Positions 15,525 through 35,566 of a stretch of 64,000 nt of DNA are shown here, in pieces (position 1 is the first letter of the stretch; every line of letters begins with the position of its first letter). Source of the DNA: Thiocapsa rosea (GTDB taxonomy: Bacteria > Pseudomonadota > Gammaproteobacteria > Chromatiales > Chromatiaceae); assembly GCF_003634315.1 (NCBI RefSeq), contig NZ_RBXL01000001.1, positions 4,506,501 through 4,570,500 of the forward strand, written 5' to 3'. The position numbers and the translations under genes were made by a program. The notes beneath the pieces are model-generated. The model saw nothing but the letters and a program-made list of their open reading frames with translations, was not told the DNA's origin and did no database searches.

Positions 15525-15646
15525 GAACGCAGGGCGCGTGACAGGCTCCGAAAGTGATCGAGGTCGACAGTGACGCGGTCCGAGACGTCATGGAACCGGA
15601 CACCATCATCCAACCAGCGAGACAACAAGCCCAGAAGGACCGCGAC

Positions 15647-19102: not shown

Positions 19103-19886
19103 CGAGACCCCCGCCAAGCCCGTCCGTCATCTCCTCGGTTTATCCGGCGGCAAGGACAGCTCCGCCCTCGCCATCTATCTGCGCGACCGAATCCCTGATA
19201 TGGAATATTTCTTCGCGGATACGGGTGCGGAGCTTCCCGAGACCTTGGAATATATCGATCTGTTGGAAGATTATTTGGGGAAGCCGATTGCGAAGCTGAA
19301 TGCGCGACGAGATTTTGACTACTATCTCAAGCTGCACAACAACTATTTACCTTCACCGCGACAGCGTTGGTGTACGATCAACCTGAAACTGCTCCCGTTT
19401 GAAAATTACGTCGGAGACGACGATGTCATCTCCTATATCGCCATTCGTGCTGATGAGCCCGCGCGTGCCGGATACCTTTCGACCAAGCCAAACATCAAGA
19501 CATGCTTTCCTTTTAAGGAAGATGGGCTCAACAAGGAAGACATTACGCACATCTTGGAAGAATCCGGGCTAGGTCTACCGAAATACTACAGTTGGCGAAG
19601 TCGATCCGGATGTTACTTCTGTTTTTTTCAACGCCATGAAGAGTGGGTCGGGCTTCAAAAAAATCATCCCGAGCTTTATGAGCGAGCGAAAGAATACGAG
19701 AAAAGCGAAGACGAATCGGGGAAAATCTACACCTGGAACCAAGCGGGCACTTTGGACGAAATCGTCAGCCGTGCTCAGCTCGCACCTGAAAAGAAAAAGA
19801 CTATGTCGCGCCCGAAGAAACTGATTGATCAGTTGACGGATCCCGATGAAGATCCGGATGATGCGTGTCTTATCTGTACGCTTTAG
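19095..19886 (+). CDS. sspD: SspD-like PAPS-reductase-family sulfurtransferase
   Basis: A 263-residue adenylating enzyme of the PAPS reductase/PP-loop ATPase superfamily. The PP-loop LGLSGGKDSSALA is at about 15-27. Cys in RQRWCTINLKLLPF and the pair GCYFCFFQRH are candidates for sulfur handling or an Fe-S ligand set; the C-terminus DDACLICTL adds another CxxC. ATG 19095 follows AGGAGA and overlaps sspC. SspD activates backbone phosphate with ATP for sulfur transfer. It is much shorter than DndC (about 500 residues), which supports Ssp over Dnd. From about 19190 the sequence turns markedly more AT-rich than sspB/sspC. Confidence 0.85.
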   Translation: MNDETPAKPVRHLLGLSGGKDSSALAIYLRDRIPDMEYFFADTGAELPETLEYIDLLEDYLGKPIAKLNARRDFDYYLKLHNNYLPSPRQRWCTINLKLLPFENYVGDDDVISYIAIRADEPARAGYLSTKPNIKTCFPFKEDGLNKEDITHILEESGLGLPKYYSWRSRSGCYFCFFQRHEEWVGLQKNHPELYERAKEYEKSEDESGKIYTWNQAGTLDEIVSRAQLAPEKKKTMSRPKKLIDQLTDPDEDPDDACLICTL

Positions 19887-19888
19887 TC

Positions 19889-22291
19889 ATGGATCGGATG
19901 GAAAATTTATTTGCTAAAGTGCGAGTTCAGGTCGGTCAAGGTGGCACTCCCCATCGACACAAACCGTTACTCCTTTTACTCGCACTCGGTCGATGTTGGA
20001 ATGGCGAACGGCGCATGGAGCGCTTCAGTGTATACGATCATGAGCTCAGAGCATTATTTGCTCGTTTCTACCCGTATGCGCTTGAGCATTCCAATACCCA
20101 TTATCCCTTCGGTCGTTTGGAAGGCGACGGTTTATGGGAGATCGAGGACAGCGAGAATCTCAAGCGGACAAGTGTCGGCCATTTGTCGAAATCCGAATTA
20201 TTAGCGCGCGACATCCATGGTGGATTCACGGCTGACGTTTTCGAGGCGCTGACTCTGGATCGATCGATCGCCTATCGGATTACAACGGACCTTATATCGC
20301 AATTTTTTGACGCCTCCGAGCGTTCTAGCCTTCTTGCATGCATCGGAATGCCGACCTCTTGGGAAATGGAGAGCAATTCCGAGAACGAATGTGCAGACGA
20401 TTCCGAACGCAAAACTGAAGAATCGACTCGGAATCTGCTTGTCGCTCCCTTTCCATCAGGAGCGCAGCATGAGATTCAAGGAGCAACTAAGATGAATCAA
20501 AATGGACTCATTTCGTATTTTAACTCATTGCACAATATCGGTGCTTCGGGAGCGAATGCGCTTGCAGAATCTCAGGCGCTGAACGAGTATTTCTCCGAGA
20601 TTTATGAGCCGTTCGAGATTGTCGATGCAATTTGCGATGTCTTAACTGCTGGTCGAGATCACGTCGTCGTGCTCACAGGACATGCAGGCGACGGCAAGTC
20701 GACCGTCGCACTCGACGTCCTCAAGAGAATCAGGGGCCTTTCTCCTAAAGACCCGCTGACGAGCGCTCTTAAAGAAGTGGAGATCATCTCGCATCCTGCT
20801 TCGGGTAGTCGAGTGATCCATATCCTTAAGGACATGAGTGAGTTAAGTGCTGCCGTGCGCCTGCAGAAGCTCGAACAGAGCTTTGAAGAGCCGGGGTCAT
20901 GGCTGATTGTCAGCAACACGGGGCCTTTGCTCAATACATTACGAGAGTTCTCAGAGCGACGCGAGGCATTGCCGGATATCGAGAGCCGGATCCTCGCGTA
21001 TCTCAATCGCCCCTACGCGAAGCACGATATCGAGTCGCATGTTCTGAAGATGTTCCCGAAGGATATGCTGATTCTGAACATGGCTCGGTTGGACAATGTG
21101 TCCTTAGGGGCCCGTGTCTTGACCCGGATGATCAACCACAGCGCTTGGGCGAAGTGCGACGCCTGCGTGGCTCAGTCGGCATGTCCATTGGTTTTGAACC
21201 GGCGGGCGCTGAAGGCGACCGAAGGGGGTGCCGAAGAGCGTGTTCGGTGGATTTATCAGCGACTCAACGCGTACGAGCAGCGACTGACATTACGGCAGAT
21301 GGTCGCACAACTCGCGTTTGCGATGACAGGCGGGATGACCTGCAAGGAAGCAAAGAACCTGGTTCTGGAATCGCCTTCGGAAGGCATCGAAAAGGGCACG
21401 GACGGTTTGGAAGGAGTTCTGTTTAGCGAAGGATTCTTCGGCTATCGAAATGGCAAACCCGTTCAAGAGGCCGGCGGTCTTACGGCTGTTCAGTTGCTTC
21501 GACGGCAGATTTTCGGCGGTCCGGTTGCTGTCGATTTCGAGCGGGAGTTGTCTTCATCGAATGGGAACGGTTGGGCGATCCTTTCCGAGTGGTTGAAACC
21601 CCTAAGCGAACGCTGGCGGCTGCGGGGTCAGGAATCCCCCGGAGTTCAATGGCGTTTTGCGCAAAGACGTATGTTGTATGTTTTCGGTCAACCGATCGCG
21701 AGCGGGCAAGCGGCCGCGGAAACGTACTGGGCGACGTTTCTCCAGTCGCCTCGCCTCCGCGATTTTGATCTGTGGGCGACTCGGCAGGAGCTGATCATCA
21801 GCCGCGGGGAGCGCGGCCGACTTTGTCGCGCTTGCTTACGGGTTCTTCTAGAGATCTTCTCGGGCTTCAGCGCCGGGCAGTTCCGTCAAGACCAGGAGCG
21901 CCTGTACCTGACATTGCGCCGGCCTGATCGAGCTGTCGTGCAGCCGACTCAGTTTGTGATGGCGACGCTGTCGTTTCAGGATTTTGACCTCGCTTACGAC
22001 GAACCCCGCCGTCTTCCCGTTCTCCAGTTTCGAAATGGCGTCGTCAAGCTACCGTTGACGTTACCTCTGCTCGACTTTATCGAAAATCGTATAGCCGGTG
22101 ATCTAGGAAGCGAGCTCGCTAGGATTCACCTTGCACAGTTGGAGTGGTTCCGCGCCGAGCTGCTCAGGGTGCTCGGCGGCAGTTCCGATCGATTTCGGAT
22201 TCAATTACTTCGCGCAGGGATCGATGGGCAGGTTCATGCGCATCGCTATCTTCTGGATAATGAACGGCAGGTGTTGGAGGTCGAGCAATGA
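19889..22291 (+). CDS. sspF: SspF/DptF with N-terminal phosphorothioate-binding SBD
   Basis: An 800-residue fusion. Residues about 1-155 match the sulfur-binding domain of phosphorothioate-dependent McrA-type nucleases: PHRHKPLLLLLALGR, then HYPFGRLEGDGLWEI, then HLSKSELLARDIHGGF. The His-Arg and Tyr-Pro-Phe elements line the sulfur pocket in that family. After a linker of about 45 residues comes DptF: LNEYFSEIYEPFEIVDAIC and Walker A GHAGDGKST at about 265. A Cys cluster, CDACVAQSACP, is near 430. ATG 20492 lies in frame behind AAGGAG with ideal spacing and could start DptF alone (about 600 residues). Starts two bases after sspD and overlaps sspG (ATGA). DptF belongs to the DptFGH restriction arm. 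Confidence 0.85.
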   Translation: MDRMENLFAKVRVQVGQGGTPHRHKPLLLLLALGRCWNGERRMERFSVYDHELRALFARFYPYALEHSNTHYPFGRLEGDGLWEIEDSENLKRTSVGHLSKSELLARDIHGGFTADVFEALTLDRSIAYRITTDLISQFFDASERSSLLACIGMPTSWEMESNSENECADDSERKTEESTRNLLVAPFPSGAQHEIQGATKMNQNGLISYFNSLHNIGASGANALAESQALNEYFSEIYEPFEIVDAICDVLTAGRDHVVVLTGHAGDGKSTVALDVLKRIRGLSPKDPLTSALKEVEIISHPASGSRVIHILKDMSELSAAVRLQKLEQSFEEPGSWLIVSNTGPLLNTLREFSERREALPDIESRILAYLNRPYAKHDIESHVLKMFPKDMLILNMARLDNVSLGARVLTRMINHSAWAKCDACVAQSACPLVLNRRALKATEGGAEERVRWIYQRLNAYEQRLTLRQMVAQLAFAMTGGMTCKEAKNLVLESPSEGIEKGTDGLEGVLFSEGFFGYRNGKPVQEAGGLTAVQLLRRQIFGGPVAVDFERELSSSNGNGWAILSEWLKPLSERWRLRGQESPGVQWRFAQRRMLYVFGQPIASGQAAAETYWATFLQSPRLRDFDLWATRQELIISRGERGRLCRACLRVLLEIFSGFSAGQFRQDQERLYLTLRRPDRAVVQPTQFVMATLSFQDFDLAYDEPRRLPVLQFRNGVVKLPLTLPLLDFIENRIAGDLGSELARIHLAQLEWFRAELLRVLGGSSDRFRIQLLRAGIDGQVHAHRYLLDNERQVLEVEQ
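20478..20494 (+). promoter_or_regulatory. Internal ribosome site and start inside sspF
   Basis: AAGGAG at 20478-20483 stands eight bases before ATG 20492, in the same frame as the fusion. The first residues from it, MNQNGLISYFNSLHNIG, begin just where DptF homology starts. A second, SBD-less product is therefore possible. Confidence 0.5.
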
Positions 22292-23886
22292 CGACGACAG
22301 ACGCGATCAACGAGAGCCTTCGACCTTTTCCCAAGAACGCCAATATCAGCGGTTCGAGTTCCGACAAGACAAATTCAGCAATTCGACTTTACGGGAGGCG
22401 GTTCTACAAAGACCAAACGCCGGTAGAGTATCTTGCCGAGTTTTTGTTGGTATTTGGTTCTCCGAAGCTGCAGGATGGTGCTGGCGAGTATTGTTTCGAG
22501 ATCCTGCCAGATCAAGGCGGGGCGTACGGTTACTGGCCGATGGATCGCATTGCATTAAAGCTATTTGCATTCTTCCCGACATCCAAACTCGAAACAAGGC
22601 ACACGGTACATCGTGCAGCCTATTTTAATGCTATTCAGATGCTTCGCGATGCGGTTGAAGGCAGCTCCGATCAAAAGGATGAAGCGATTCGCTTGGTTCA
22701 AAGCTTGCTCGGCGGTTTCGTCGGTATCGCTAAGAACCGGACCTGGGTTACTTACAGTTTTTTACCTGCTTCAAAAGCCTTGCTCGGACGTGAGCTTGAT
22801 TGGCTTCACTCTGCAGCGAAGAAGGATTCTGAATTAAAGGACTGGGCAGATGGCAAAAAACATTTTGCAACGGATCGCCATAATTTCATGGCTCGGGGCG
22901 GGGAGTTGTTGTTCTTACAACTCGCAAACCTGTTCTCCGAACCTGCCGCGCCGGAGTTGTTGAAGCTGATGCAGCGGGTCGAGTATCGGCATATCGGAGA
23001 CTTCAGTATCAGCGAACGTAAGAAGCGTGTTCAGCTCGGGCTCCGTTCGATTCTCGAGGACGCAATCCGGCCACTGAATGACCTGGTTTCTATGGTCGAG
23101 GCACGGCTTTCATCCTTTAAGCTTCAGGATGATGGAAAGGTTGCGTCCCTAGGCTGGACTCCATCCGTGAGTCGAACCGAGGCACTTCTGTTTGCAGTTG
23201 AAATCGACAACATCTGTTCGCTCAGCCTGAGTTCTTTGGAAAAACTCGATCTACTTCAAACGCTCTGCTGCATCCATGTTTTGAGAAGTCTTTGCTTTCA
23301 AGCGAGACGGGTCGATCAGGGCGAGGGCGACACCTTCGGATTCTGTGGAAACTATACCTGGATTACGAGTGATCCGGAGGGATCTTCAGGGTCTCCGATA
23401 AGACAGATGTCTCAGGCGTCTGTCTCGAAAATCGAGGCTTTACTCTATAGAGTTTTAAGGAACAAGCAATTTCAGGGAAAGGGCGCGAGTTCCGCCGAAG
23501 CGGACAAGCATGGATTCCAGATCTTTCGAAAGATATCAAAAGAGATCGGCCTAATGATACCGATAAAAGGCCCAGGGCAGCGATTCTCACTGAATCCGCG
23601 CTTGGTTCGGTTTTTGGTTGCAGCCCTCGTGCGTCCTGGAGAACACCTTCCGCTCGATAGGTTTTATGACCGTGTGTTCGCACACTACGGCATCGTGCTT
23701 GGAGGTCAGCCCTTGGCGGAGGCCCTCAAGTGGTCCAGCGCAGCTGGTCATCAGAAGAGTTACGGGGTCGATGTCAGTACCGGCTGGATCGAGGAAACGC
23801 TACAACAGGGTGGCTTTCTTATCGAACTTTCCGACGCCGTATCGATCGTGCACAACCCTGATGGAAACAGTGAGGCCCGAGGATGA
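22288..23886 (+). CDS. sspG: SspG/DptG restriction component
   Basis: A 532-residue protein encoded exactly between DptF and DptH, joined to both by ATGA overlaps. I assign it from position, size and overall character as DptG (SspG); I see no P-loop and no nuclease motif. It includes NKTNSAIRLYGRRFYKDQTPVEYL at the N-terminus, helical segments and LRSLCFQARR in the centre. DptG is needed for DptFGH restriction but its biochemical role is unclear. Composition is AT-rich like sspD and sspF and unlike the next gene. Confidence 0.78.
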   Translation: MTTTDAINESLRPFPKNANISGSSSDKTNSAIRLYGRRFYKDQTPVEYLAEFLLVFGSPKLQDGAGEYCFEILPDQGGAYGYWPMDRIALKLFAFFPTSKLETRHTVHRAAYFNAIQMLRDAVEGSSDQKDEAIRLVQSLLGGFVGIAKNRTWVTYSFLPASKALLGRELDWLHSAAKKDSELKDWADGKKHFATDRHNFMARGGELLFLQLANLFSEPAAPELLKLMQRVEYRHIGDFSISERKKRVQLGLRSILEDAIRPLNDLVSMVEARLSSFKLQDDGKVASLGWTPSVSRTEALLFAVEIDNICSLSLSSLEKLDLLQTLCCIHVLRSLCFQARRVDQGEGDTFGFCGNYTWITSDPEGSSGSPIRQMSQASVSKIEALLYRVLRNKQFQGKGASSAEADKHGFQIFRKISKEIGLMIPIKGPGQRFSLNPRLVRFLVAALVRPGEHLPLDRFYDRVFAHYGIVLGGQPLAEALKWSSAAGHQKSYGVDVSTGWIEETLQQGGFLIELSDAVSIVHNPDGNSEARG

Positions 23887-26800
23887 ATCTCTTCGTAGAC
23901 AGCCTGGCGGAATACCTCGCGGGCGAGTGGGACCGCGTGCTATCTGAATCCGACGGACCAAGGGAAGCCAGATTCATCATTCAAAGTCTTTCTCCTGTCA
24001 ACACATTCGATCTGTTTGCCACACTTGAGGAACATCGCGTCGCCTGGTCGAAGCACTCACGGATCGAGTGTCATTTCAAGGTCGCCGCTGGACTCTGGAA
24101 CGATTGGCGTCAGGAGTACAGTCAAGCCGATTTGGATCAAGAACTGGCGGCACATGGTGCGCCGGGCGCAGGCGACGAACTAGGTTGGATCGACTTAGAC
24201 GATCATCTGACCTGGTACAGGAATCGGACCCGCAGCCCTGAGATGGAGGGGCTTGTCGTTGTGTTGCTCGGTCTCAACCATGCATCCGATCAAGGCGGAT
24301 TGGCCAACTTTCACGTCGTTGACGAGGGTCGTCTGTGGCAACGTATGGAGACCGGATTCGCGCCCTGGATCGAGCGCATCAATAGTGATTTCGGGCTTTC
24401 GGCGAGTCAAACGGAAATCGAGCGTTTTGATTCGGTTTTGCAGGATCTGTTTCTGACACGGCCACGTCAGCTTGAGCGCCTATCGGGCTTCCTTCAAAAC
24501 GAGGTGATCGCTGACGGGCAGGATCTCTATGCGCTCTCGGATGTTGTCAATCGTTTCTATGCCAAATTACCCTTCTGGGAAATCCCTCCGTTCTTCGACG
24601 TGCAGCCGAGTCGGAAGAGCACCGGGCTTCTGAAGGATGCCGCAACTTTTATTTCGCATCAGCGGTTCAAAACAACATTCGAGCAGAAGAAGGCTTGGAA
24701 GAAGATCCAGGAGGCTCTCGACGAGGATCGGCTCGATCTGCCGGCGACACTGGACAATCTGCCGCTGTACGACAGCCCGAAGGCGTTCTCCGAGACCTTG
24801 TATGCCTTCATCCACGAGGCCGATACCAAGGCGCGGGAACGGCTGCTGCAAACCGATCTTGGACCCGTGCTGCGGTTGCTCAAGGCCAAAACCAATGAGG
24901 GGAAGGGTGGTACGCCCAAAAAGCCTTTCAATCTCAACGGCCAAAGTCTCGATGCCTTCCTACAGGCGATCTGGCTGACCCTGTTGGAGTTCCAGAAGCG
25001 TCGGGGCAGCAGCGCACTGGCCGAGACGCTCAAGTCGGTGCGGATCGAGCTGGTGGCTTTCAGGCATGACCTTCAGGCGGACGAGGACGCCGGTCTCGGG
25101 AAGGAGTTTTTGGCGAAGGAGCTGCTGCAAGGCTGTCTCGGCGGTATCGTCGAGGTTCTTGATCGGATCGAGTGGCGATTGCCGATCGACGGCGATCAGG
25201 TCGGGGCCGCACGCGATGACTGGGAGCGGGTGATCCCGATTTGCATGGATATGAATCTGGACGAACTGGCGTACGGAGTCAGCCGCGGGCGGCCACATTT
25301 GCATTTTAAGGTGATCCTGGAGACCGAGGAGGGGGAGGGCGACATGACGCGGCCCTTCCACTGGTCGATCGGTCCGAACCAGCCTGAACGGGTGAGGCGC
25401 CTGTGCGCGAAGACCGTGCTGGAGCGTTGGGACGAAGCGGGGAATCCGCATCGCATCTTGCCTGCGTTTCGCATCCCGTCGGTGGTGATGACGGCGCTCT
25501 ATTACGCCGCCGACGAGGACGAGGCGAATCGCCTGGTGAGTCAGGCGCTCAACGAGCTGAGCCTGGTCGATCTCCTGGACGGGGTGTCTCAGGATCTCTT
25601 CGATCCCTTATTGTGGCGGGCCGTGCTGACCCTTTCCGGGGCCTATCGAAACTTGCTGAAACGCTACTTGGAACAGGGCTACTACCACGCCATCACGCAC
25701 GATTTCTTGCCAGTGCTGCAGGCTTACCTGGCGCTGGCCGAGCAGGTGCTCGATCCAACGCTGTGCGGCAGCAGCGAGCTGCTGCGGCGCCTCTACAAGG
25801 CATTCCTGCTTGTCGATGAGGAGATGGCCGAGAACGACGGCTTTCTGCGCTCGGCGATCGTCTTTGGGATCAGCCCTTCGGTGTTGGAGCTAACCTTCGC
25901 ACGCCAACGCTTCCTGTGCGACGGCTTTCCGGAGGCCGCGGCCGAGCTGGCGCTGGGTCACGACGGCAAGTCCGCCTTCAACCAGTTGCTGAAGCTGGCC
26001 GAGATCCATCGGCCGCTGGCCGGTCTAGTGGTGGATCAGACCGGGCGTCTCTCGGCCGAGATCAAATCGTTCGGTCTGCTGCATCATCTCGGGCCGGAAC
26101 GCGACGGCGAGAAGAGCCTCGCGGTTCAGACGCTGCTGCGCGAGGAGGAGAGCGACGACGACGACAATGTCTCCGAGATCACACGCCCCACAGAAGAGAG
26201 CGAGGTGGTGGTGCGGGTACTGGAGGATTATCGCCAGCTTTATCCGTTCGCCGAGGACGGGATGCGCATCCTGGCCCTGCATGTCGAAGAGCTAGGCACC
26301 GTCCTGTCCGGGGTGGATCGCTTCCTGCGCGCCTATTTGAAGAGCACTCCGCGCGATTGGCCGGCCTTTCATTGCGAGGTGATGGTCTACTCGACCTCCT
26401 CCTCGCCGATGGCGATGGAGAGCCGGCTTTCGGCCTGGCGCCATCAACTCGCCGAGGCACATCGCGAAAGCGGGCGGCCCTTGGTGTTGTCGGTTGGTCA
26501 TCGGTTCGCGCCGGATCGGGGGCGGATGGTCGACCTACTGGCACAGGAGCGCCGGCTCTATGACATCGCCTTCCTGTTTCACTTTCTGGAGGGGGACCTG
26601 ACCGGCAAGGCCGAGCCGGCGTTGCCGTTCCAGTTCGATTTCAACGCAAGCAATATCGGGCAATTTCCGATTTGCGAATATCCCCGCCCCATCCAGGCCG
26701 GCGACCCCTGGCGTCGGCAGAGCCTGCTGAGCAATCGGCGTCTGCAGATCCAGACACGACACGCTGATCTCTCAGCGCGTCTGCGCAATGATCTGAATCC

Positions 26801-29720
26801 ACACAAGGATCATCTGATCTTCGGCCAGATCGACTACTCCCCTTGGCAGGAAGTGGTGGAGGCGCTGCATGCCAAGGCGCAATGGGTCGCCTGCATCGAT
26901 CCTTTCGTGGACAAACGCCTGCTGCGCACGGGGGAGGGGGACGAGCGCCGCAAGATCGTCGGCTTTACCTCCGGGCTGGGCGACTACGGCGAGCTGAATC
27001 TATCGATCTCGACGCAGCAGGACACCCTGGCGCAGCTTGCCGGTCTGGTCCGCGGTCAGTTGGCGGGCCTGATGCCCTATCAGGACGACGTCGCGCTGGA
27101 CGGCATGGCAGCCAAGGTGGTGAACGAGGCCGAGGAGGTGATCGGTCTCTCCGCGCTGCGTGCGGTAGTCGGCGACAGCGAGCGTGTGCGCGAGGTGGTT
27201 GGCTTCGCCGCGATCCGGCGCGCCTTGGCGGTACCGACGGCGGCCATGTCGCAACTGTTGCCGGTCGATTCGCTGCTGCACTGGTTTGCGGGGAGCGATG
27301 TCACCCACCGTCCGGATCTGTTGCAGTTGTCCCTGATCCCGCGCGAGAACGATCTGCCGCTGCTGCATGCGGTGGTGATCGAGTGCAAGTTCGCGCAACA
27401 GAACCCCGCGCATCTGATCAAGGCGAGCGACCAAGTCCAGGAGGGCCTGTCGCACCTGATGCCGCTGCTGGCACCGAACCGTGACGATCTGCGACGGGTA
27501 AGCTTCGATCGGCGCTACTGGTGGGCGCAACTTCAACGTGCCGTGACCTCGCGGGCGGTCGTGCAACTCTCGGAGATCGAGTGGCGTAAGCTCGATCGTG
27601 CCCTGGAGAACCTGGCCGAGGGCTATTACGAGATGTCCTGGCAGGGCGCCATCTTCACCTTCTGGACCAACGAACCCGGCCCGGAGCCCGTGCTGACCCC
27701 GATGGCGTTGCCGCCGGGCGTGGTCGCGGCGCCGTTCACTGTACCGAACGATTTCGCGGTCTGGCATGTGGCCCTTGGCCATGAGGGGCTGACCGCACTG
27801 TTCGCGGAGGATGCACCGCAGGGCTCGGTGGCCCTAGGGGAGCAGCGTATTGCGATTCGCTCGACGGTTAGGCGCGCCGATGAAGAAGCGGAGCTGGCCG
27901 AGGCGCGGACCGACGTTGCCCGGGGGGATGCTGAGGATCGGCCGTCTGTGGAGAGCGAAGGGACCTCGGCATTACTGCCTGCGGCGGAAGGCGCGGACAC
28001 GTCCGCGACCGATACGCCGATTCGGGCGGTGCGGCGGACGGCGATTACGCCGGCCTCGCGCGACGCGGACTCGCGAGCTGTGCTGTCGGGCGAGAGCCCG
28101 GTTCGTGCGTCCGGGACTTCGCCGGAGCGCGAAACCCCGACAACCACGGCCGAGCGTTCGGACGACGGTGAGACGGTTCCGGATACCTCGAGTGGTGTCG
28201 TACGGCGGATCATGCGTTGGCCGCTGTTCGGGCGGAAGACCAGTGAAGGGGAGACGGAACCCGCGCCGACGAGTGATCCCAGGATCGCGAAGGAGTCGGG
28301 GAGGGGACATGTGGTCCGGCGTATGGAGCCGTTGAAACCCGCGGTGAAGGTGCCGCCGGTCGACACGGTGCGATACGGTCGCGATGCGACGGTGCCCGTC
28401 CATGGCGCGTCGAACGACGGGGGCTGGGATCCCGAGCGGATGGTGGCTACCCCGCCAGGTGAAGGATCACCCGCGCGGGCCGGACCGGCCGTGATGTCGA
28501 ATCAGGCCGCACCGGGGGCGCCTGTCAAGGTTGATCCAATCGTTAAGTGCCCACCGCCTGCGGCCGACCCGGTTCCGGAAAAAATCTTGATCGGCACCAA
28601 GAGCAACGGTGAACCGGTCTATTGGCATTACGGCGATAAGCGCCTTCAGAACCGCCACCTCTTGGCCTTCGGCGCCTCTGGATCGGGCAAGACCTATGGT
28701 ATTCAATGCCTGCTCGCCGAGATGGCCGCCCAGGGATTGCGCTCACTCATCGTCGATTACACCGACGGATTCCTGCCGAATCAGGTCGAAGAGCGCTTTA
28801 CGGCGATCGCCAAGCCGCGGAACCATTACGTCTTCACCGAGAAGCTGCCGCTGAACCCCTTTCGACGTCAACGCCAGGTCATCGACCCTGCTTTACCGGC
28901 CGTCGACGAGAAACCCTATGACGTCGCCACGCGGGTTTCGAGCATCTTCACCTCGGTCTTCGAGACCATGGGCGATCAACAACAGTCCGCGCTGGTGCGC
29001 GTCATCGACGCCGGCATCACCGCTTCCAGCACCTTCTCGTTGCCAAAGCTCCTGGACGGACTGCGCAGCGATGGTCAATACGGCGAGAGTCTTGCCAATA
29101 AGCTGGAGCCCTTGATCAAATCCGAGCCTTTCCGCGAGGGTGCAGACTCGGCCTGGGCCGAGATGCTCGCCTCACCAGACGCCTGGGTCCATGTGCTTCA
29201 GCTCAAGGGGCTGGCGCGCGATATCCAACGTCTCGTCACCGAGTTCACACTCTGGGACCTCTACGACTACGCGACCAGCACCGGGAGTCAGTATCGACCC
29301 ATTCCGGTCGTGCTCGACGAGATCCAGAACCTGGATCACCGCAGCGACTCACCCATCGACAAAATGCTGCGCGAGGGCCGCAAATTCGGCCTCTCCCTGA
29401 TTCTGGCCACACAGACCACGAGCCAATTCAACCAAGAGCAACGCGACCGCCTTTTCCAGGCCGGCCATAAGCTGTTCTTCAAACCCGCCGACACCGAGAT
29501 CGACCGTTTCGCCACACTGCTCAACCAAGCAACCGGCGAGAGCAAGGCCGAATGGAGCCAACGTCTCGCCAAGCTGAACAAGGGTCAATGCTGGTCGCTG
29601 GGTGGTGTCCTGACGTCCGGCGGCACGCTTCAGACGAAACCAATTCTGGTCAATGTCACTACGCTGGAGGAACGGGGATTGGGCGGGGCGCTTGAGTTGC
29701 CGCCTTACTCCCTTGCGTGA
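23883..29720 (+). CDS. sspH: SspH/DptH, HerA-FtsK-like restriction ATPase
   Basis: A 1945-residue protein. The N-terminal about 1300 residues are largely helical without a clear motif. Residues about 1320-1560 are a low-complexity linker rich in Ser, Thr, Pro, Glu and repeated RR pairs. The C-terminal about 380 residues are a HerA/FtsK ATPase: LAFGASGSGKTYG (Walker A about 1597-1604), SLIVDYTDGFLPNQVE, PIPVVLDEIQNLDHR (Walker B about 1809) and ILATQTTSQFNQ (sensor/Arg region). This layout and the position after dptG identify DptH, the ATPase of the DptFGH arm that damages DNA lacking phosphorothioate. From about 24.7 kb it is much more GC-rich than sspD-F-G. Confidence 0.87.
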   Translation: MNLFVDSLAEYLAGEWDRVLSESDGPREARFIIQSLSPVNTFDLFATLEEHRVAWSKHSRIECHFKVAAGLWNDWRQEYSQADLDQELAAHGAPGAGDELGWIDLDDHLTWYRNRTRSPEMEGLVVVLLGLNHASDQGGLANFHVVDEGRLWQRMETGFAPWIERINSDFGLSASQTEIERFDSVLQDLFLTRPRQLERLSGFLQNEVIADGQDLYALSDVVNRFYAKLPFWEIPPFFDVQPSRKSTGLLKDAATFISHQRFKTTFEQKKAWKKIQEALDEDRLDLPATLDNLPLYDSPKAFSETLYAFIHEADTKARERLLQTDLGPVLRLLKAKTNEGKGGTPKKPFNLNGQSLDAFLQAIWLTLLEFQKRRGSSALAETLKSVRIELVAFRHDLQADEDAGLGKEFLAKELLQGCLGGIVEVLDRIEWRLPIDGDQVGAARDDWERVIPICMDMNLDELAYGVSRGRPHLHFKVILETEEGEGDMTRPFHWSIGPNQPERVRRLCAKTVLERWDEAGNPHRILPAFRIPSVVMTALYYAADEDEANRLVSQALNELSLVDLLDGVSQDLFDPLLWRAVLTLSGAYRNLLKRYLEQGYYHAITHDFLPVLQAYLALAEQVLDPTLCGSSELLRRLYKAFLLVDEEMAENDGFLRSAIVFGISPSVLELTFARQRFLCDGFPEAAAELALGHDGKSAFNQLLKLAEIHRPLAGLVVDQTGRLSAEIKSFGLLHHLGPERDGEKSLAVQTLLREEESDDDDNVSEITRPTEESEVVVRVLEDYRQLYPFAEDGMRILALHVEELGTVLSGVDRFLRAYLKSTPRDWPAFHCEVMVYSTSSSPMAMESRLSAWRHQLAEAHRESGRPLVLSVGHRFAPDRGRMVDLLAQERRLYDIAFLFHFLEGDLTGKAEPALPFQFDFNASNIGQFPICEYPRPIQAGDPWRRQSLLSNRRLQIQTRHADLSARLRNDLNPHKDHLIFGQIDYSPWQEVVEALHAKAQWVACIDPFVDKRLLRTGEGDERRKIVGFTSGLGDYGELNLSISTQQDTLAQLAGLVRGQLAGLMPYQDDVALDGMAAKVVNEAEEVIGLSALRAVVGDSERVREVVGFAAIRRALAVPTAAMSQLLPVDSLLHWFAGSDVTHRPDLLQLSLIPRENDLPLLHAVVIECKFAQQNPAHLIKASDQVQEGLSHLMPLLAPNRDDLRRVSFDRRYWWAQLQRAVTSRAVVQLSEIEWRKLDRALENLAEGYYEMSWQGAIFTFWTNEPGPEPVLTPMALPPGVVAAPFTVPNDFAVWHVALGHEGLTALFAEDAPQGSVALGEQRIAIRSTVRRADEEAELAEARTDVARGDAEDRPSVESEGTSALLPAAEGADTSATDTPIRAVRRTAITPASRDADSRAVLSGESPVRASGTSPERETPTTTAERSDDGETVPDTSSGVVRRIMRWPLFGRKTSEGETEPAPTSDPRIAKESGRGHVVRRMEPLKPAVKVPPVDTVRYGRDATVPVHGASNDGGWDPERMVATPPGEGSPARAGPAVMSNQAAPGAPVKVDPIVKCPPPAADPVPEKILIGTKSNGEPVYWHYGDKRLQNRHLLAFGASGSGKTYGIQCLLAEMAAQGLRSLIVDYTDGFLPNQVEERFTAIAKPRNHYVFTEKLPLNPFRRQRQVIDPALPAVDEKPYDVATRVSSIFTSVFETMGDQQQSALVRVIDAGITASSTFSLPKLLDGLRSDGQYGESLANKLEPLIKSEPFREGADSAWAEMLASPDAWVHVLQLKGLARDIQRLVTEFTLWDLYDYATSTGSQYRPIPVVLDEIQNLDHRSDSPIDKMLREGRKFGLSLILATQTTSQFNQEQRDRLFQAGHKLFFKPADTEIDRFATLLNQATGESKAEWSQRLAKLNKGQCWSLGGVLTSGGTLQTKPILVNVTTLEERGLGGALELPPYSLA

Positions 29721-29870
29721 TCGAATATCAACGAAACTGGGCTGCGGTGAGTCGAGCGATCCTCAGTGGGAATTCCTCGTAATCAATATTGAAAAGCAAG
29801 ACTCGTGAAATGGAAAGGCGATGCCCTCAATATCGATGTTCTACGGATTGATCATCTAGAGGTGATGCGA

Positions 29871-30119
29871 ATGAATTCTAGAGTATCAAGCGTCGTCCCA
29901 CTTTCAGGCTACAAACTGCATTTGGAGTTCAGCAGCGGGGAAACGGGAGTGTACGATTGTTCCGATCTTCTTGAGATCGGTGTATTCAAGGAACTGCAAG
30001 ACGAGAATTATTTCCGAACCGTAAAGGTCCTGGATGGCACAGTGGCTTGGCCTCACGACCAAGACATCTGTCCCGATACACTGTATTTGGACTCAAGAAA
30101 AACCGCCGAACCCGGATGA
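29871..30119 (+). CDS. DUF2442 domain protein
   Basis: An 82-residue protein matching DUF2442: RVSSVVPLSGYKLHLEFSSG, then FKELQDENYFRTVKVLDGT and WPHDQDICPDTLYLDS. ATG 29871 has GAGG eight bases upstream; ATG 29865 and a longer start at 29805 are in frame. DUF2442 genes often lie beside DUF4160 genes in toxin-antitoxin-like pairs, but no DUF4160 gene is here. Role in the island unknown. Confidence 0.75.
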   Translation: MNSRVSSVVPLSGYKLHLEFSSGETGVYDCSDLLEIGVFKELQDENYFRTVKVLDGTVAWPHDQDICPDTLYLDSRKTAEPG

Positions 30120-30156: not shown

Positions 30157-31029
30157 ATGATGCTGAAAGCGCTGCCTTTTAACTTCCCGTGTACATTCCT
30201 GCCTGATCGACGTCTGTTGGGGCAGCTCCTTGCGTTTGCCGGACGTGGCGGCGGAGGCGACATCGGGACGATCAGCGCCGAGACCGGGATTCCGACCGGG
30301 AAGATGACCGGGAAAGTCGAACCGATGATCCATTACGCAAGCGGGATGGGGTTGGTAACCGCCGCGAAATCAAAGGGGGTCTGGCAGATTGCGCGTACGT
30401 CGCTGGGGGCGATGGTTTCGCGGGAGGACGCCTTTCTGAGCGAGCCGCTGACCATGTGGCTCATGCATCTGCTGCTGTCCCGCCGTCTGGGGATCGTCGC
30501 TCCGGCGACGGGCGTCGCTGATCCCTGGTTCGTGCTGTTTGCGGAGGGACGGTTTCGTTTGGGCGAGCGCTTCGATCTAAACGCCTATCTAAATCTCCTC
30601 ACCGAGCGACATGGCGCGAAGCAATATCTGAAGCCGCTGGCGGGTCTAGTCGCGCGCATGTACAGCGAACAGACGTGCTTCGCAGACGCTGCAATCTTAA
30701 GTACCTCTGAGAATGCCGCAGGCGAGCTGCTCTTCAGGCGCGAATCGGCGCCGCTTGAGACCGCCTTTTTTCCGGCCTATGCGGTCTTTCTGTGGCTGAT
30801 CTGGGACGAAGCCTTCGGGGACGTCGAGCAGGTGAGCTTCGATGAGCTCGCGCACGAAACACGCATCCTTTCCCTGTTGGGTTGGGACGGTGCTCAGGCG
30901 GCTACATGGCTCGACTGGCTGGCCGACCAACACCTCGCGCAGCTCGACCGCTACACTGGGAGCGTGGTGTTGCTCAGACTGGTGAAGACGGGGCAGGTGA
31001 TCGATCGCCTCTATAGTGAATTGGTCTAG
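30157..31029 (+). CDS. Second, divergent DUF4007/SspB-like protein
   Basis: About 290 residues from ATG 30157; upstream in-frame codons overlap the DUF2442 gene and lack a ribosome site. It follows the same plan as SspB: FPCTFLPDRRLLGQLLAFAG, a winged-helix-like SAETGIPTGKMTGKVEPM, then WQIARTSLGAMVSREDAFL, EPLTMWLMHLLLSRRLG and DPWFVLFAEG, parallel to the LG..L...DPYLED..TLWILHW...FFWFFN block of the first copy. I infer a distant DUF4007 paralogue. It directly precedes the SspC-like ATPase, with a 49-base gap, which repeats the SspB-SspC pairing. Confidence 0.6.
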   Translation: MMLKALPFNFPCTFLPDRRLLGQLLAFAGRGGGGDIGTISAETGIPTGKMTGKVEPMIHYASGMGLVTAAKSKGVWQIARTSLGAMVSREDAFLSEPLTMWLMHLLLSRRLGIVAPATGVADPWFVLFAEGRFRLGERFDLNAYLNLLTERHGAKQYLKPLAGLVARMYSEQTCFADAAILSTSENAAGELLFRRESAPLETAFFPAYAVFLWLIWDEAFGDVEQVSFDELAHETRILSLLGWDGAQAATWLDWLADQHLAQLDRYTGSVVLLRLVKTGQVIDRLYSELV

Positions 31030-31078
31030 CTGAGTGGTAGTCTATCGCTCTGATACGGATTTCTTAAGGGAGAAGACG

Positions 31079-34000
31079 GTGAAGATCGGAAGTCTGGTTC
31101 GGTTCAATGATGAGCGATTCTTCGAAGGCGCGGTGCAGTTGCGATGGGTGCAGGATCGCTGGCCGCAAGCACAGCAAGCAGCGAGTGCCTTTGTCTTCCA
31201 CGGCCCTCGCTATCACGGTGTGGCCGAGGCCGAGCTAGACGGCATCGAGCGCGGCTATCGGCTGAAAGACACGGCGAGCGTCGTTGCCGATCTGCTGGAT
31301 TCGATTGTCGGCGGGCTGCGCGGCGAAGAACACAACCCCTATGCGCTGGCCGTTGCGGGCTACGGCACCGGTAAGTCCCACCTCTCGACGGCGATCGCCT
31401 GTTTGCTCGGTGAGCCGGATGGGGCAACCGCAGGGCGCATCGTCGCGAACCTGACCCAAGCCGACGCCGAGATCGGGCGGAGGGTGACCGAGCGGGTCGC
31501 TCAGTTGCGCAAGCCGGTTCTGGTGCTCTGTCTGGACGGCATGGCCGGCTTCCACCTAGGCAACGCCCTGATCCAGGCGGTCTTCGCCCAGCTCGATCGC
31601 TATGGTGTAGATCCAGGCGCGATTCGCGATCTGTCGCCGCGTTTTCAAACCGCCGAGCAATTCGTCGAGCGCAATTTCGACATCCGTGCCGAGGCCTTCG
31701 CGCGTCATTGTCCCGGCCTGAGTCGGGAGGAGATCCGAACGCGGCTGCGCAACAACGACGAGGCCATCTACACGCAGGTCGACGCCCTCTATACGGACGC
31801 GAACGGCGCGGCCATCCCGGTGATCGGGCAGGAATCAGCCCAAGAGTTGATCAATACGCTCTGCGAGGTCTATTGCGGACCTGACGGGGCCTTTTCGAGC
31901 GTGCTGATCCTCTTCGACGAATTCGGACGCTATCTGGAGTACGCGGCCGAGAAGCCGCAGCTCGCGGGCGACACGGCACTACAGCAGATCTTCCAGGGCG
32001 TGCAGGACAACAGTAATCGGGTCCGTTTTGTCGGCCTGATCCAATACGAGTTGAAGGCCTATCTAAAGCGTTTCGGCAGTGCGGATCTGCGGCAGCTGCA
32101 ACGCTACATCACGCGCTTCGATGCAGCCGAGAAGCTATATCTCTCGACGAATCTCGAAACCATCTTCGCGCACATGATCGGTAAGGACGAGGCTGGTCTT
32201 ACCGATGTCTGGCGTCGGGCGGGGGCGGATACGGCACAGCACACGAGCTGGCAGCGGATGTCTCGTGCCTTGCCCGGATTCGGCCGGTATCCGGTGTGGA
32301 GCGATCCGGAGCGCTTCGAGCAGGTCATCGCGAAAGGCTGCTGGCCGCTGCATCCGCTGGCGACCTGGTTTCTCACGCGTCAGCGCGACATCGTGCAACA
32401 GCGCTCGGCGCTGACCTTCATCAAGGATGTAATCGACCGCATCGGCGACGAGGACGCGCTCGTCGGGCAACGTCTGCGTCAGGTCAGCGCCGGTGAGTTG
32501 GTGCTGCGCAGCATGCTCCCGGAGATGATCGCCGCCGAGCGCGAGACCGGCTCGACGGTCGCCGAGACCCTGCAAGTCCTGCTGGAGAAGTTCCAAGGCC
32601 ACTTAGGCGCAGCCGAGGAGTTGACGCTGGCCGGTGTGGCGATCCTAGAGAAGACCCGTGTCGGGAAGCAGACGCGAGAGCAGGCGGATGCGCTCTTGTC
32701 CGAGGCCACGGCCTTAGATGCCGATACCCTGCACATGGCTGTATGCCGGCTGGGTGACGAGATGGGTGCATTGGAGTGGAACGGCGATCTGGGTCAATAC
32801 GAGCTGATCGCCGATGCCTCGACGCGGGGCCAGTTTCAGCAATGGGTGCGTCAACGCACGGCCGCCATCGGCACGGAGGCGGTGCGCGATCTGTTTGTCG
32901 GGCGTGCCGCGAAGGACGCCGAGATCGGCAATATCGCGACTGATTTCGGGCTGAATCAGAACATCGCTACCTCGGAATGGTTCTTCGAGGCCCAGCTCGC
33001 CAACCTGCAAACCCTGCCGAATGTCGTCAAGGCTGCCTTCCAAGACTGGCAGGCAGCTGCCTCGCCAAAGGATGCCCGCGGACGGGTGATCTATCTCTAC
33101 ATCCACGCAGATGATGACCCGGCCGCCGTGGACGAGACGATTTCGAACATCTTCCAAGCCGAGCTGATTCGAATCAAACAGTCCGCGGCACCGATCTGGG
33201 TTGTGGGGATCGCGGATCCGAAGCAGGTCATCGCGCATGCGCTCAAGCGTCTCTATCTGTTCGACGAGCAGGTCTCGGGCGAGGAGCGCGAGCGCTTTCG
33301 CCGCTTCTTGCCGGAGGAAATGCTGCGGGGTCGCGCCGCCCTGAAGGCGTCTGTGCAGGAGGCGATCAAGGAGCGAAGCTACTGGGTCGCCGGATTCGAA
33401 ACCGTCCCGGACGGGCGATTGAAGGCGGTCGGCGAGCGCATCTTCGCGCAGATCTATCCGCGGACGATTCCATTTCCGTTCGATGGGTTTGCGACCTCCG
33501 CCGGCGGTGGCCCGGCGGATGCCGCTCAGCTCACGCGCAGCCTGATCGCAGGTCAGGTCGACGGGACTTGGGTCCAGGCACAGCAGAAGCGGATGCAGAA
33601 TCGCGCCGGGGAGGTGCTGGCCCGAAGTTGGCGAGCACTTGCGCCGACGGGGAAGTTGACAGAGCCGGTCAATCCGGCGGTGAAGGCCGTTTTCGATGAG
33701 CTGCAGTCGGCGCATCGGGACGATCACAAACGCACCCTCGGGGCCTCCTATCAGGCTTTGATCTCGCCACCTTATGGTCTGAATACCGCGTCAGCGGGTC
33801 TCATGCTGGGCTTACTGATCGGCGGCGCTCACCCGCCGCGCCGCCTCGAGCAAAGTGGACAGATGATCGCGTCGGCCGACTGGCTCAGCGATGCCTTCCC
33901 GACTCAGCGTGGTAAGCACGCCTTCGATCCTGCGGTTCTTCGCAAGACCTCTCTGCGCTTTCTCTCCGAGGACGGCGAAGGACGCTGGCGCGCCTTACTG

Positions 34001-35566
34001 ACCCGCTGGGACACCGAGCCGAGCTACCGGACCCTGGTCGCGCTTGCGCATGAGGCTGAGCAGATGCAGCGTGTCGATCCGATGCCGGAGGTGTTGGAAG
34101 GCACCTACCGGTATCTGCGCGACAAGTCAACGGAAGCACAGGCGAAGCTGCGTCACTTCGGCATCGAGCTCAATGAGTGGGAGAAGAACATCGAGCGCGC
34201 CGAGCGTCAGAACAATGTCGGCGAGTTGCTGCGCCATGCGCTGTTGCTGCTGCGGCGAAGGGAAGAGGTCGAGGGGGCTGCCTGTTGGCCCGAGTCCTTC
34301 GGGGTCGACTGCGAGAAGCAGTTGGCGATCGTGCGCGAGCTGGTGTCCGAGAGGCTCGCCGATTGGATTCCGCGCCAAGGCTGTCACAACGCCGCCGAAG
34401 TCGCGACCTTCCGTCACCGGATCGAGAAAGCGATCGATAGCCTCAAACGGCTCGGTTTCCCCTCCGAGGCGGGTGCGCTTGAGGAGCAGGCGCAACGCGC
34501 GATCATGCAGGTCGAGAAGCGTCAGCACTTCAAGCTGACGCTGGACGAGAGCGACGATTATCCGCGGCAGCCCGCGCCGACCGACTCGACACCCGTGCGC
34601 GAGTTGCACGACGGGATCGCGAAGGGCGACGCATTGATCGATGCGCTAGACGGCGCGCGCTCGGCCTTGACCGAGGAGGAGATTCGCGCTCGCATGAAGG
34701 CGATCCAGGATCGTCAGCAGCGCCTGCGCGAGGCGCTTGATCGCCAGCGGACTCTACTCGGTGCGCTCTTTGCGGCCGTACCGAAGACCGAGAGCGCGCT
34801 GCAGGAGGCGCTTGCGCGGGTGAGCCGACTGCGCGAGATCTTCGTCGGCACGCGTGATGAATCCGAAGTGAGCGAGTTGGCGTTTCAGCTCCAACGGATC
34901 GCCGCCGATCTCGGGACATGGGAAACCGGCGACATGTCCCCCGAGCGGCTGGCCGAGATCTTCGGTCAGCAGATCGAGCATCAGTCGGCCGCACTGTCGG
35001 AGGAGCTTGCAGCACGCGAGATCGATCCCGCCTGGGATTTGGCCTCGGTGTATCAGGCGCTCGGCGTTGAACGCATTGATGCCGCGCGGCGACGCTCCGC
35101 CGACTGGCTGAGTCCGCGTCGAGCGCTGTCGGACAAGATCCCGACACTCGCCCGCGATGGCTGCGCCCGAATCGAGTCGGAGCTCAACGTAGCGCCGTCC
35201 TATCTGTCGATCGAAGACCGTGAAGTGGTCGAGCAACTCCTTGAGATGCTGGCGCTGCGAATCGCGATCCTCGACGGGCAGGCGCGGCAGACGCGCATCG
35301 AGACCTGGTGCCGAGGACTTCCCGAGATCCAGGAGATCGGGACACTCGACAAGCATCGGACGGAAGCCTTTTTGAAGGATCTGCAAAACCCGCCCGAGAT
35401 GCTGTCGCCGGACGAGCATGCCGTACTTGCACCGCTCGCCGAGGCGTTGAACGCGCATTACGATCAGATGAGCATGGACGAGATCATGGCGCGGATTGAG
35501 CGGTTGGGGATGGAGCGCCGGCAGGAATTGCTCGCGTGGCTTGCTGGGCAATTGGCGCCGTGTTGA
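31079..35566 (+). CDS. Second SspC-like large P-loop ATPase
   Basis: About 1495 residues from the GTG at 31079, with AAGGGAG six bases upstream; GTG 31034 is an in-frame alternative without such a site. Walker A is AGYGTGKSH at about 93 and Walker B VLILFDEFGRYLEYA at about 275, very like VLIEIDELGKFLEY of the first ATPase. Long helical parts with coiled-coil character follow (for example IRARMKAIQDRQQRLREALD). It resembles BrxC/PglY ATPases. It ends the island; no second SspD or PglZ follows. Possibly it shares SspD with the first set or serves an accessory function. Confidence 0.65.
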   Translation: MKIGSLVRFNDERFFEGAVQLRWVQDRWPQAQQAASAFVFHGPRYHGVAEAELDGIERGYRLKDTASVVADLLDSIVGGLRGEEHNPYALAVAGYGTGKSHLSTAIACLLGEPDGATAGRIVANLTQADAEIGRRVTERVAQLRKPVLVLCLDGMAGFHLGNALIQAVFAQLDRYGVDPGAIRDLSPRFQTAEQFVERNFDIRAEAFARHCPGLSREEIRTRLRNNDEAIYTQVDALYTDANGAAIPVIGQESAQELINTLCEVYCGPDGAFSSVLILFDEFGRYLEYAAEKPQLAGDTALQQIFQGVQDNSNRVRFVGLIQYELKAYLKRFGSADLRQLQRYITRFDAAEKLYLSTNLETIFAHMIGKDEAGLTDVWRRAGADTAQHTSWQRMSRALPGFGRYPVWSDPERFEQVIAKGCWPLHPLATWFLTRQRDIVQQRSALTFIKDVIDRIGDEDALVGQRLRQVSAGELVLRSMLPEMIAAERETGSTVAETLQVLLEKFQGHLGAAEELTLAGVAILEKTRVGKQTREQADALLSEATALDADTLHMAVCRLGDEMGALEWNGDLGQYELIADASTRGQFQQWVRQRTAAIGTEAVRDLFVGRAAKDAEIGNIATDFGLNQNIATSEWFFEAQLANLQTLPNVVKAAFQDWQAAASPKDARGRVIYLYIHADDDPAAVDETISNIFQAELIRIKQSAAPIWVVGIADPKQVIAHALKRLYLFDEQVSGEERERFRRFLPEEMLRGRAALKASVQEAIKERSYWVAGFETVPDGRLKAVGERIFAQIYPRTIPFPFDGFATSAGGGPADAAQLTRSLIAGQVDGTWVQAQQKRMQNRAGEVLARSWRALAPTGKLTEPVNPAVKAVFDELQSAHRDDHKRTLGASYQALISPPYGLNTASAGLMLGLLIGGAHPPRRLEQSGQMIASADWLSDAFPTQRGKHAFDPAVLRKTSLRFLSEDGEGRWRALLTRWDTEPSYRTLVALAHEAEQMQRVDPMPEVLEGTYRYLRDKSTEAQAKLRHFGIELNEWEKNIERAERQNNVGELLRHALLLLRRREEVEGAACWPESFGVDCEKQLAIVRELVSERLADWIPRQGCHNAAEVATFRHRIEKAIDSLKRLGFPSEAGALEEQAQRAIMQVEKRQHFKLTLDESDDYPRQPAPTDSTPVRELHDGIAKGDALIDALDGARSALTEEEIRARMKAIQDRQQRLREALDRQRTLLGALFAAVPKTESALQEALARVSRLREIFVGTRDESEVSELAFQLQRIAADLGTWETGDMSPERLAEIFGQQIEHQSAALSEELAAREIDPAWDLASVYQALGVERIDAARRRSADWLSPRRALSDKIPTLARDGCARIESELNVAPSYLSIEDREVVEQLLEMLALRIAILDGQARQTRIETWCRGLPEIQEIGTLDKHRTEAFLKDLQNPPEMLSPDEHAVLAPLAEALNAHYDQMSMDEIMARIERLGMERRQELLAWLAGQLAPC

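Follow-up and report, generated by a model that had tools for sequence, protein, structure and literature searches.

A second DUF4007–ATPase pair beside divergent SspFGH genes in Thiocapsa rosea, a candidate restriction-side part of a phosphorothioate defence system

Introduction

Why should a phosphorothioate (PT) defence island that already encodes a DUF4007 protein and a large ATPase among its writing genes encode a second such pair at its other end? The question is raised by a stretch of 64,000 nucleotides from Thiocapsa rosea (contig NZ_RBXL01000001.1, positions 4,506,501 to 4,570,500; the whole stretch is called the window here), which belongs to a 6.1 Mb genome (G000, genus Thiocapsa). 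Between 11835 and 35566 the + strand encodes, in order, SspA, SspB, a YhgA-like protein, SspC, SspD, three proteins F, G and H, a DUF2442 protein, and the pair in question, B' and C'. In the scheme used here SspA–D would write PT, with SspB (a winged-helix DNA binder) and SspC (a ring ATPase of the ORC/Cdc6 type; ORC, origin recognition complex) choosing the site. How a PT system directs its attacking complex, with PT at a minority of sites, has been left open (PMC8092258), and communication between modification and restriction has been raised as a question (PMC12707154). We propose, with a probability of about 0.57, that B' and C' scan DNA and load the attacking complex on the restriction side of a PT defence system of a divergent SspFGH type.

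Remote homology of B' and C' to SspB and SspC

The initial annotation of this DNA had described a second SspB–SspC-like pair. Both open reading frames (ORFs) are there, and profile–profile comparison bears out remote homology for both members. For B', a 331-residue ORF starts at 30034 and overlaps the DUF2442 gene; we took as the start the in-frame ATG at 30157 (290 residues), which agrees with the point at which homologues begin. B' has no Pfam match, DUF4007 (PF13182) included, and a PF13182 search of its own genome retrieves SspB only; a single-model search with the SspB model of PADLOC gives a weak match (E 0.002). With a profile of nine B' proteins, hhalign aligns B' with SspB at 98.4% (E 6e-14, 265 columns); the highest of 11 unrelated control pairs reaches 0.14%. 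The AlphaFold model of B' has a predicted local distance difference test score (pLDDT) of 88.4 and a predicted template-modelling score (pTM) of 0.89, and the top three Foldseek matches are SspB crystal structures (6lb9/6juf; E 2e-6 to 7e-6, probability 1.00, template-modelling score (TM) 0.66–0.70); the predicted fold is that of SspB. Out of 36 columns conserved in at least eight of nine SspB proteins, the majority residue of B' is the same in 13 and different in 23. The changes include R19 to D/E, N52 to G and M53 to K (nine out of nine B' proteins each), D156 to L (seven out of nine) and H13 to P (six out of nine); F16, G48, D89, H102, F119, Y164 and G273 are common to both families. By profile comparison, B' is confirmed as a remote relative of SspB.

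The C' ORF opens at GTG 31034 (1510 residues); its homologues begin at the motif M/VKIGSL, which corresponds to GTG 31079 and gives 1495 residues. In the 1495-residue protein the Walker B block FDEFGRYLEY starts at residue 279, and DELGKFLEY, to which the initial annotation had likened it, starts at residue 221 of SspC. C' matches the PADLOC SspC model (E 2e-15) and, as a profile of eight proteins, aligns with SspC in hhalign at 99.5% (E 2e-21, 1026 columns). The alignment indicates that C' is homologous over the length of SspC, with intact Walker motifs. The structural model (residues 1–1149 of the 1510-residue frame; pLDDT 81.0, pTM 0.42) leaves the domain arrangement unsure. Its top six Foldseek matches are BrxC structures (best E 1.5e-7, probability 1.00, target-normalised TM 0.45–0.58), and four of these six chains belong to complexes that also contain BrxB and PglZ. 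ORC/Cdc6 proteins of archaea and eukaryotes come next, and the predicted fold is BrxC-like. PDB searches by sequence alone with the B' and C' profiles returned chance matches only.

The closest relatives among the compared families lie in BREX-4-like loci

Of all families included in the comparison, the one closest to both B' and C' is the second DUF4007–ATPase pair of two plasmids with loci resembling type 4 of BREX (bacteriophage exclusion), from Thermomicrobium roseum (NC_011961, L029 13859–22828) and Pseudanabaena galeata (NZ_CP112879, L030 13579–23929). In hhalign, B' aligns with DUF4007 no. 2 of these loci at 99.55% (E 2e-22) and C' with ATPase no. 2 at 100% (E 1e-50, 1406 columns). The gene order on both plasmids is SspB-SspC-SspD, DUF4007 no. 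2, a small protein, ATPase no. 2, PglZ, BrxL and a cysteine desulfurase: pair 1 is beside SspD, and pair 2 is beside the effectors, between SspD and PglZ-BrxL. C' matches two of 72,556 plasmid records (E 1e-5), namely these two, and the SspC of the window matches 67 (E 1e-3). A third plasmid relative, from Annamia, has its locus in short pieces and was left out. The plasmids combining SspBCD with DUF4007-ATPase-PglZ-BrxL belong to Thermomicrobiota and Cyanobacteriota, and their large ATPase matches no PADLOC model at E 0.01.

The tree agrees: C' (eight rows) and the two no. 2 ATPases form one clade apart from nine SspC proteins and the outgroup, with a bootstrap of 99 and a Shimodaira–Hasegawa-like approximate likelihood ratio test (SH-aLRT) value of 97. 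One type-1 BrxC served as the outgroup, and the T. marina protein (partial, very long branch) was left out; an earlier tree had no outgroup and cannot alone place C' nearer to the BREX-4-like ATPases. No canonical type-4 BREX ATPases are included, because a BrxP search of 249 Pseudomonadota genomes (E 1e-30) gave none. It is likely, not certain, that C' groups with the BREX-4-like ATPases rather than with SspC, because the branches of the outgroup and of the no. 2 ATPases are long. C' is not SspC proper: it falls in a separate clade and lies beside H rather than inside the SspBCD operon. A recent duplication of the local SspB–SspC is ruled out by the merely remote similarity and the separate clade of C'. 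Kinship with PbeABCD is likewise rejected, as PbeA is a PLD-helicase and PbeC is SMC-like (PMC6459918); no PADLOC match is named Pbe, although the presence of Pbe models in PADLOC was not checked.

F, G, H, B' and C' form a conserved unit

H, B' and C' are found in that order and on one strand in all fetched loci that show H and its downstream side. These are the window, four more Thiocapsa genomes (G001, G008, G006 and G005), G606 and G802 (both from the family of a Competibacteraceae bin), G283, an unclassified proteobacterial bin (L014), Endozoicomonas (L017), Thiodiazotropha (L018), Arsukibacterium (L019), Thiorhodococcus (L020) and a contig fragment of G528. The F-G-H-B'-C' order spans at least four gammaproteobacterial families. 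Thus the two outcomes that would have counted against the initial annotation are not what we see: remote homology exists, as both members are homologues of SspB and SspC, and the pair is not found mainly in unrelated contexts, as the order FGH-DUF4007-ATPase recurs in other genomes. H is not in view in four cases: L013, where just 1.6 kb upstream are covered; L021, where an incomplete B' and a C' in pieces follow SspC directly, FGH being absent from the space between them; and the relics L022 and G009.

As most loci were fetched via C', they cannot alone show that FGH always has the pair, and searches that start from G are the fairer test. The G profile was searched against 398 Pseudomonadota genomes, 11 Thiocapsa genomes, and 39 and 75 genomes from the families to which G606 and G283, respectively, belong (some overlap). 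Strong matches were found in G000, G283, G001, G006, G008, G606 and G802, and H, B' and C' are present in seven out of seven, three of which (G006, G008 and G802) lie outside the sequences of the G profile; in G802 G is in two pieces and C' runs off the contig. Two weak matches were set aside: G781 (E 6e-7; a canonical SspG beside SspABCD on a contig that ends inside H) and G850 (29 residues, E 8e-4). A PADLOC SspG search of 388 genomes retrieved canonical SspBCD-SspFGH loci in G128, G257 and G417, and G000 and G283 weakly; neither B' nor C' is found in any of the three canonical loci (35–50 kb mapped).

C' itself is rare. A full copy is found in G000 and G283 among the 398 phylum genomes, and among 369 class genomes in G000 and G606, with the fragment in G528. 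Weak matches in three further genomes were rejected: G257 in the phylum set (57 residues, E 1e-3), and G632 (E 6e-6, to a 1087-residue ORF of SspC size) and G655 (short stretches with stops) in the class set. In viral contigs the C' profile gave 44 pattern matches, none of them confirmed. Short C' remnants, some with stops, are seen in the same-genus genomes G002, G004, G007 and G009, which suggests, from these sequences, that the module has decayed repeatedly within the genus.

Extra genes separate H and B' in five Thiocapsa genomes (window included), and B' and C' in G802 and L020. A same-strand cassette of five to six genes lies between H and B' in G008 (L051 1598–9697), T. marina (L015 622–8889) and T. 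imhoffii (L016 1726–8754). In G008 it encodes a DEAD-box helicase, three ATPases of the BrxC/BrxD family (PF10923), an unassigned protein of ~269 residues and a DUF4351 protein; the other two cassettes were equated with it solely from the order and sizes of their genes. The H of T. marina (G005) is shortened to 1015 residues; a search of the genome did not detect G, and the mapped region does not contain F. Directly upstream of the short H there are genes for BrxL, for a protein that matches PglZ marginally and for an incomplete ATPase resembling SspC (L050 10093–19763), as if a BREX-like module had taken the place of F, G and the start of H.

F and H as candidate reader and nuclease

The initial annotation had called the three genes before the pair DptFGH. 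F, G and H match the SspF, SspG and SspH models of PADLOC, partially and with strong divergence (the best SspG match to G covers about 120 C-terminal residues), and not Dpt or Dnd, with only the HerA end of H being DndH-like. The N-terminus of F matches the NCBIfam model NF045808 of a PT-DNA-binding restriction enzyme (E 5e-21, residues 27–165, below the curated cut-off) and the sulfur-binding domain of ScoMcrA (5zmo, E 5e-6). Out of the sulfur-pocket residues H116, R117, Y164, P165 and A168 (PMC6224610), F retains H116, Y164 and P165, has a lysine for R117, reported in that paper to be the usual, functional variant, and differs at A168. NF045808 also matches F of G606, G001, G006 and G008 (five genomes with the window), and all four pocket residues (His, Lys, Tyr, Pro) are found in the window, G606 and G008. 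The domain was not detected in two canonical SspF proteins (G128 and G417). In H, the P-D and E-x-K residues are kept in six out of six aligned sequences, and a HerA domain that includes Walker motifs lies downstream of them; we read this motif as a putative PD-(D/E)XK nuclease.

Co-divergence with H and association with the SspBCD writer

Protein identities were compared by Spearman correlation in seven genomes (21 non-independent pairs). The tie of C' to H (0.98) is the strongest of all C' pairings, followed by B' (0.93), G (0.89), SspB (0.87), SspD (0.86), F (0.84) and SspC (0.74). This bears on whether B'C' could be a second writer that borrows the lone SspD to put PT at another sequence motif, the possibility that the initial annotation had raised as a second recognition specificity. 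B' retains the predicted SspB fold and C' the ATPase motifs, the sole SspD of the window could be shared (one is found among window ORFs of at least 80 residues with our own profiles at E 1e-4, as the initial annotation had said), and C' follows SspB and SspD fairly well. Yet the pair adjoins H, not SspD, and tracks H most closely, B' departs from SspB at the 23 of 36 conserved columns given above, and the related pairs adjoin PglZ and BrxL. We therefore disfavour a second writer and consider it unlikely.

The module seems to accept different writers. Identities between the window and Endozoicomonas are 36% for SspB, 28% for SspC, 56% for SspD, 50% for F, 50% for G, 52% for H, 43% for B' and 48% for C'; between the window and G283 they are 34, 32, 52, 40, 43, 36, 34 and 38%, in the same order. 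The SspC proteins of Endozoicomonas and G283 group in a separate clade (bootstrap 100, SH-aLRT 99), away from those of the window and Competibacteraceae, and in both genomes SspBCD lies downstream of C' on the opposite strand; we infer that a single lineage of FGH-B'C' has become combined with two or more lineages of SspBCD. SspD was found in all 12 genomes whose B' and C' are open (the C' of L018 being split close to its end). It was mapped at the locus in the window, G001, G008, G006, G606, L017 and G283, and found by genome search in G005, L014, L018, L019 and L020. The search was positive in five out of nine cases in total: none was found in the genomes with L013 (frameshifted), L021 (truncated), G528 and G802 (short contigs), and draft assemblies make these absences weak. 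The four same-genus genomes with C' remnants are excluded from the count.

These data also address whether FGH-B'C' could be a stand-alone, PT-independent machine of the HerA/ORC type that counters invaders and merely lies beside SspBCD. DndFGH has been argued to be able to act alone, HerA plus Orc/CDC6 capture systems are known (Rakesh et al. 2024, PMC10853773), and the module occurs with two SspBCD lineages. Against such independence stand the finding of SspD in all 12 genomes with open B' and C' and in none of the four with frameshifted, truncated or fragment-contig copies, and the sulfur-binding domain of F in five genomes, three of them with all four pocket residues. We regard it as improbable, to the same degree as the second writer. 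In Vibrio, SspFGH damages non-PT DNA and impairs cells without PT (PMC8092258); that SspD is missing just where the module looks broken or fragmentary fits this harm to PT-less cells.

Proposed role of the pair

What we propose for B'C' builds on homologies, predicted folds, gene order, C'–H co-divergence, sulfur-pocket residues, and nuclease-like and Walker motifs, which are the parts directly established. B' would contact DNA for the attacking complex, and C' would form a ring, driven by ATP, on which H is brought together with F and G at the DNA. Through its sulfur-binding domain, the F of this lineage may read PT and so tell self from non-self, and the system would restrict phage. A published description of BrxC has it as a scaffold that forms oligomers and contains winged helices and an ORC/Cdc6 ATPase (PMC12839542), and its structures in complex with BrxB and PglZ exist (PDB entry titles); by analogy, C' might play this scaffold part for H, F and G.

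A third arrangement would have B'C' restrain FGH, or link FGH to SspBC through mixed rings, instead of loading it. The published accounts of BrxC as a scaffold (PMC12839542) and as a coordinator of modification (PMC12707154) favour this, as does the homology of SspC and C'; but the two ATPases lie in deeply separate clades, and the pair coexists with distant SspC lineages. This regulatory role appears to us slightly less probable still than the two alternatives above. The initial annotation had also suggested a restriction or regulatory module built from modification parts. A restriction-side reading is close to this, except that the components resemble SspB–SspC less than they resemble the pair on the effector side of BREX-4-like loci. 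Overall, its observation of a second pair is confirmed and its interpretation is partly supported.

Several observations weigh against a restriction-side loading pair. The correlation rests on seven genomes and 21 non-independent pairs, C' tracks SspB and SspD about as it tracks F and G, with SspC alone clearly lower, and the writer of G283 is barely more divergent than its module (SspB 34% and SspC 32%, vs B' 34% and C' 38%). In the tree, the outgroup BrxC branch is very long (3.4), hhalign with the single BrxC sequence fails for all families (0.17% vs C'), and the BREX-4-like set consists of two ATPases only, both on long branches. The degraded loci L021, L022 and G009 retain C' pieces with no H in view. 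As for F, the pocket histidine is an asparagine in G001 and G006, no sulfur-binding domain was detected in the F proteins from Endozoicomonas, Thiodiazotropha and Arsukibacterium, and F of G283 carries N-terminal NERD nuclease and kinase-like domains resembling MAD6/PglW instead (L032 6820–10953); PT reading by F is therefore not general to the module. Finally, three genes suffice for the SspFGH cassette of Vibrio to work (PMC8092258), which means that FGH does not generally depend on such a pair.

A broader scheme, to which we give slightly less than even odds, is a general two-scanner PT defence in which one DUF4007–ORC/Cdc6 pair writes with SspD and a separately evolving pair restricts, together with FGH in the window and with PglZ-BrxL in BREX-4-like loci. 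FGH-B'C' would then be an unnamed five-gene restriction module able to work with various SspBCD writers, and the N-terminal reader or effector domain of F would be exchangeable. This would suggest that writing and cutting each have their own scanner and, if true, would link SspFGH and BREX-4-like systems by a common effector-side module. If one version of the site-choosing pair served restriction alone, simple deletions would be enough to test the targeting question. The five genes would also provide a signature for survey tools, one that Pfam and PADLOC (2023 release) pick up only weakly at B' and C'.

Comparison with known systems

The BREX-4-like loci share with the window two DUF4007–ATPase pairs per PT locus, the second one adjoining the effectors and being the closest to B' and C'. 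Their effectors, however, are PglZ and BrxL, with a small extra protein, where the window has F, G and H, and their pair 2 precedes the effectors, whereas that of the window follows them. PglZ and BrxL together in the locus define type-4 BREX; neither matches any window ORF of at least 80 residues (own profiles of two sequences each, E 1e-4), so the window falls outside that type. The predicted fold of C' residues 1–1149 matches BrxC (Acinetobacter 9zll, 9zdx and 9zn5) first, but the window has no detected PglZ or BrxL, and a single type-1 BrxC sequence is not alignable by hhalign.

SspABCD-SspFGH of Vibrio anguillarum FF-93 (PMC8092258) likewise combines an SspBCD writer with F, G and H. There, however, restriction is a three-gene cassette, to which the window adds B'C', a DndH-type HerA, the sulfur-binding domain of F, and very divergent F, G and H. 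HerA systems coupled to Orc/CDC6 and an SspB-like winged helix-turn-helix protein have already been described (PMC10853773), and DUF4007 is a BrxA-like part of type-4 BREX and BRC systems (PMC12839542). The HerA/FtsK capture and BRC systems (PMC10853773, PMC12839542) share with the window a HerA translocase, an ORC/Cdc6 ATPase and a DUF4007-type DNA binder; BRC differs in having PglZ, DUF6079, a STAND NTPase and sometimes TGT/GNAT (PMC12839542), where the window has SspF/G and a full SspABCD writer. A mark of the Orc/CDC6–HerA capture systems is an ORC protein with an inactive REase between its AAA+ core and winged helix (PMC10853773). The excerpts of open-licence literature covered here hold no account of a second DUF4007–ATPase pair attached to SspFGH, nor, leaving aside PMC9239176 (where both terms occur), of an SspF with a sulfur-binding domain.

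Layout of the island

The features of the island are listed in Table 1. F and G overlap by four bases, as do G and H, and the gap between B' and C' is 49 bases, given the C' start at 31079. The genes past C' run on the opposite strand and encode cytochrome c-like and SoxA/TsdA-like products, so C' is the last gene of the island, as the initial annotation had it.

Table 1. Coordinates of the PT defence island in the window
Feature	Position	Strand	Evidence
SspA, cysteine desulfurase	11835..12986	+	PADLOC SspA E 1e-137
SspB, first DUF4007 protein, writer pair	13861..14763	+	Pfam DUF4007 E 9e-74; phmmer vs SspB 6juf E 2e-27
SspC, first ORC/Cdc6-type ATPase, writer pair	15554..19102	+	PADLOC SspC 1248 bits
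SspD, PAPS-reductase-like sulfur transferase	18921..19886	+	PADLOC SspD E 2e-107
F, SspF-like NTPase with N-terminal sulfur-binding domain	19865..22291	+	PADLOC SspF E 7e-24; NCBIfam NF045808
F, putative sulfur-binding domain (residues 27–165; pocket residues H32, K33, Y80, P81)	19943..20359	+	NF045808; PMC6224610
G, divergent SspG	22288..23886	+	PADLOC SspG E 2e-17, C-terminal part only
H, SspH-like, PD-(D/E)XK-like motif and DndH-type HerA translocase	23883..29720	+	PADLOC SspH E 4e-19; DndH HerA E 1e-58
H, nuclease-like motif PD...ExK (D1145, E1167, K1169)	27315..27389	+	conservation in 6/6 aligned H
H, HerA/FtsK translocase domain	28578..29450	+	domain-model matches
DUF2442 protein, local insertion separating H and B'	29805..30119	+	Pfam E 2e-15; G001 has one too
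B', divergent protein of predicted SspB/DUF4007 fold, pair 2, 290 residues	30157..31029	+	profile comparison, predicted fold
C', BrxC/SspC-like ORC/Cdc6 AAA+ ATPase, pair 2, 1495 residues	31079..35566	+	profile comparison, tree, predicted fold
C', Walker A, AGYGTGKS	31355..31378	+	A, G, Y, G, G, K, S invariant in 10/10 aligned C'
C', Walker B block, FDEFGRYLEY	31913..31942	+	F, D, E, G, R, L, E, Y invariant in 10/10 aligned C'

The YhgA-like gene (14859–15524), of a transposase family, splits SspB and SspC in the window and likewise in G001, and is missing there in G008 and G006. When the window between 19300 and 24300 is compared with G001 (L037), nucleotide identity drops from ~91% to 48–64% over a block that begins in the middle of SspD, takes in F and G and ends where H starts, and beyond that block it is 77–95% up to about 28.6 kb. 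The SspD, F and G proteins of G001 are closer to those of T. imhoffii (G006) than to those of the window, and on these identities the SspD-F-G block seems to have been exchanged between Thiocapsa species.

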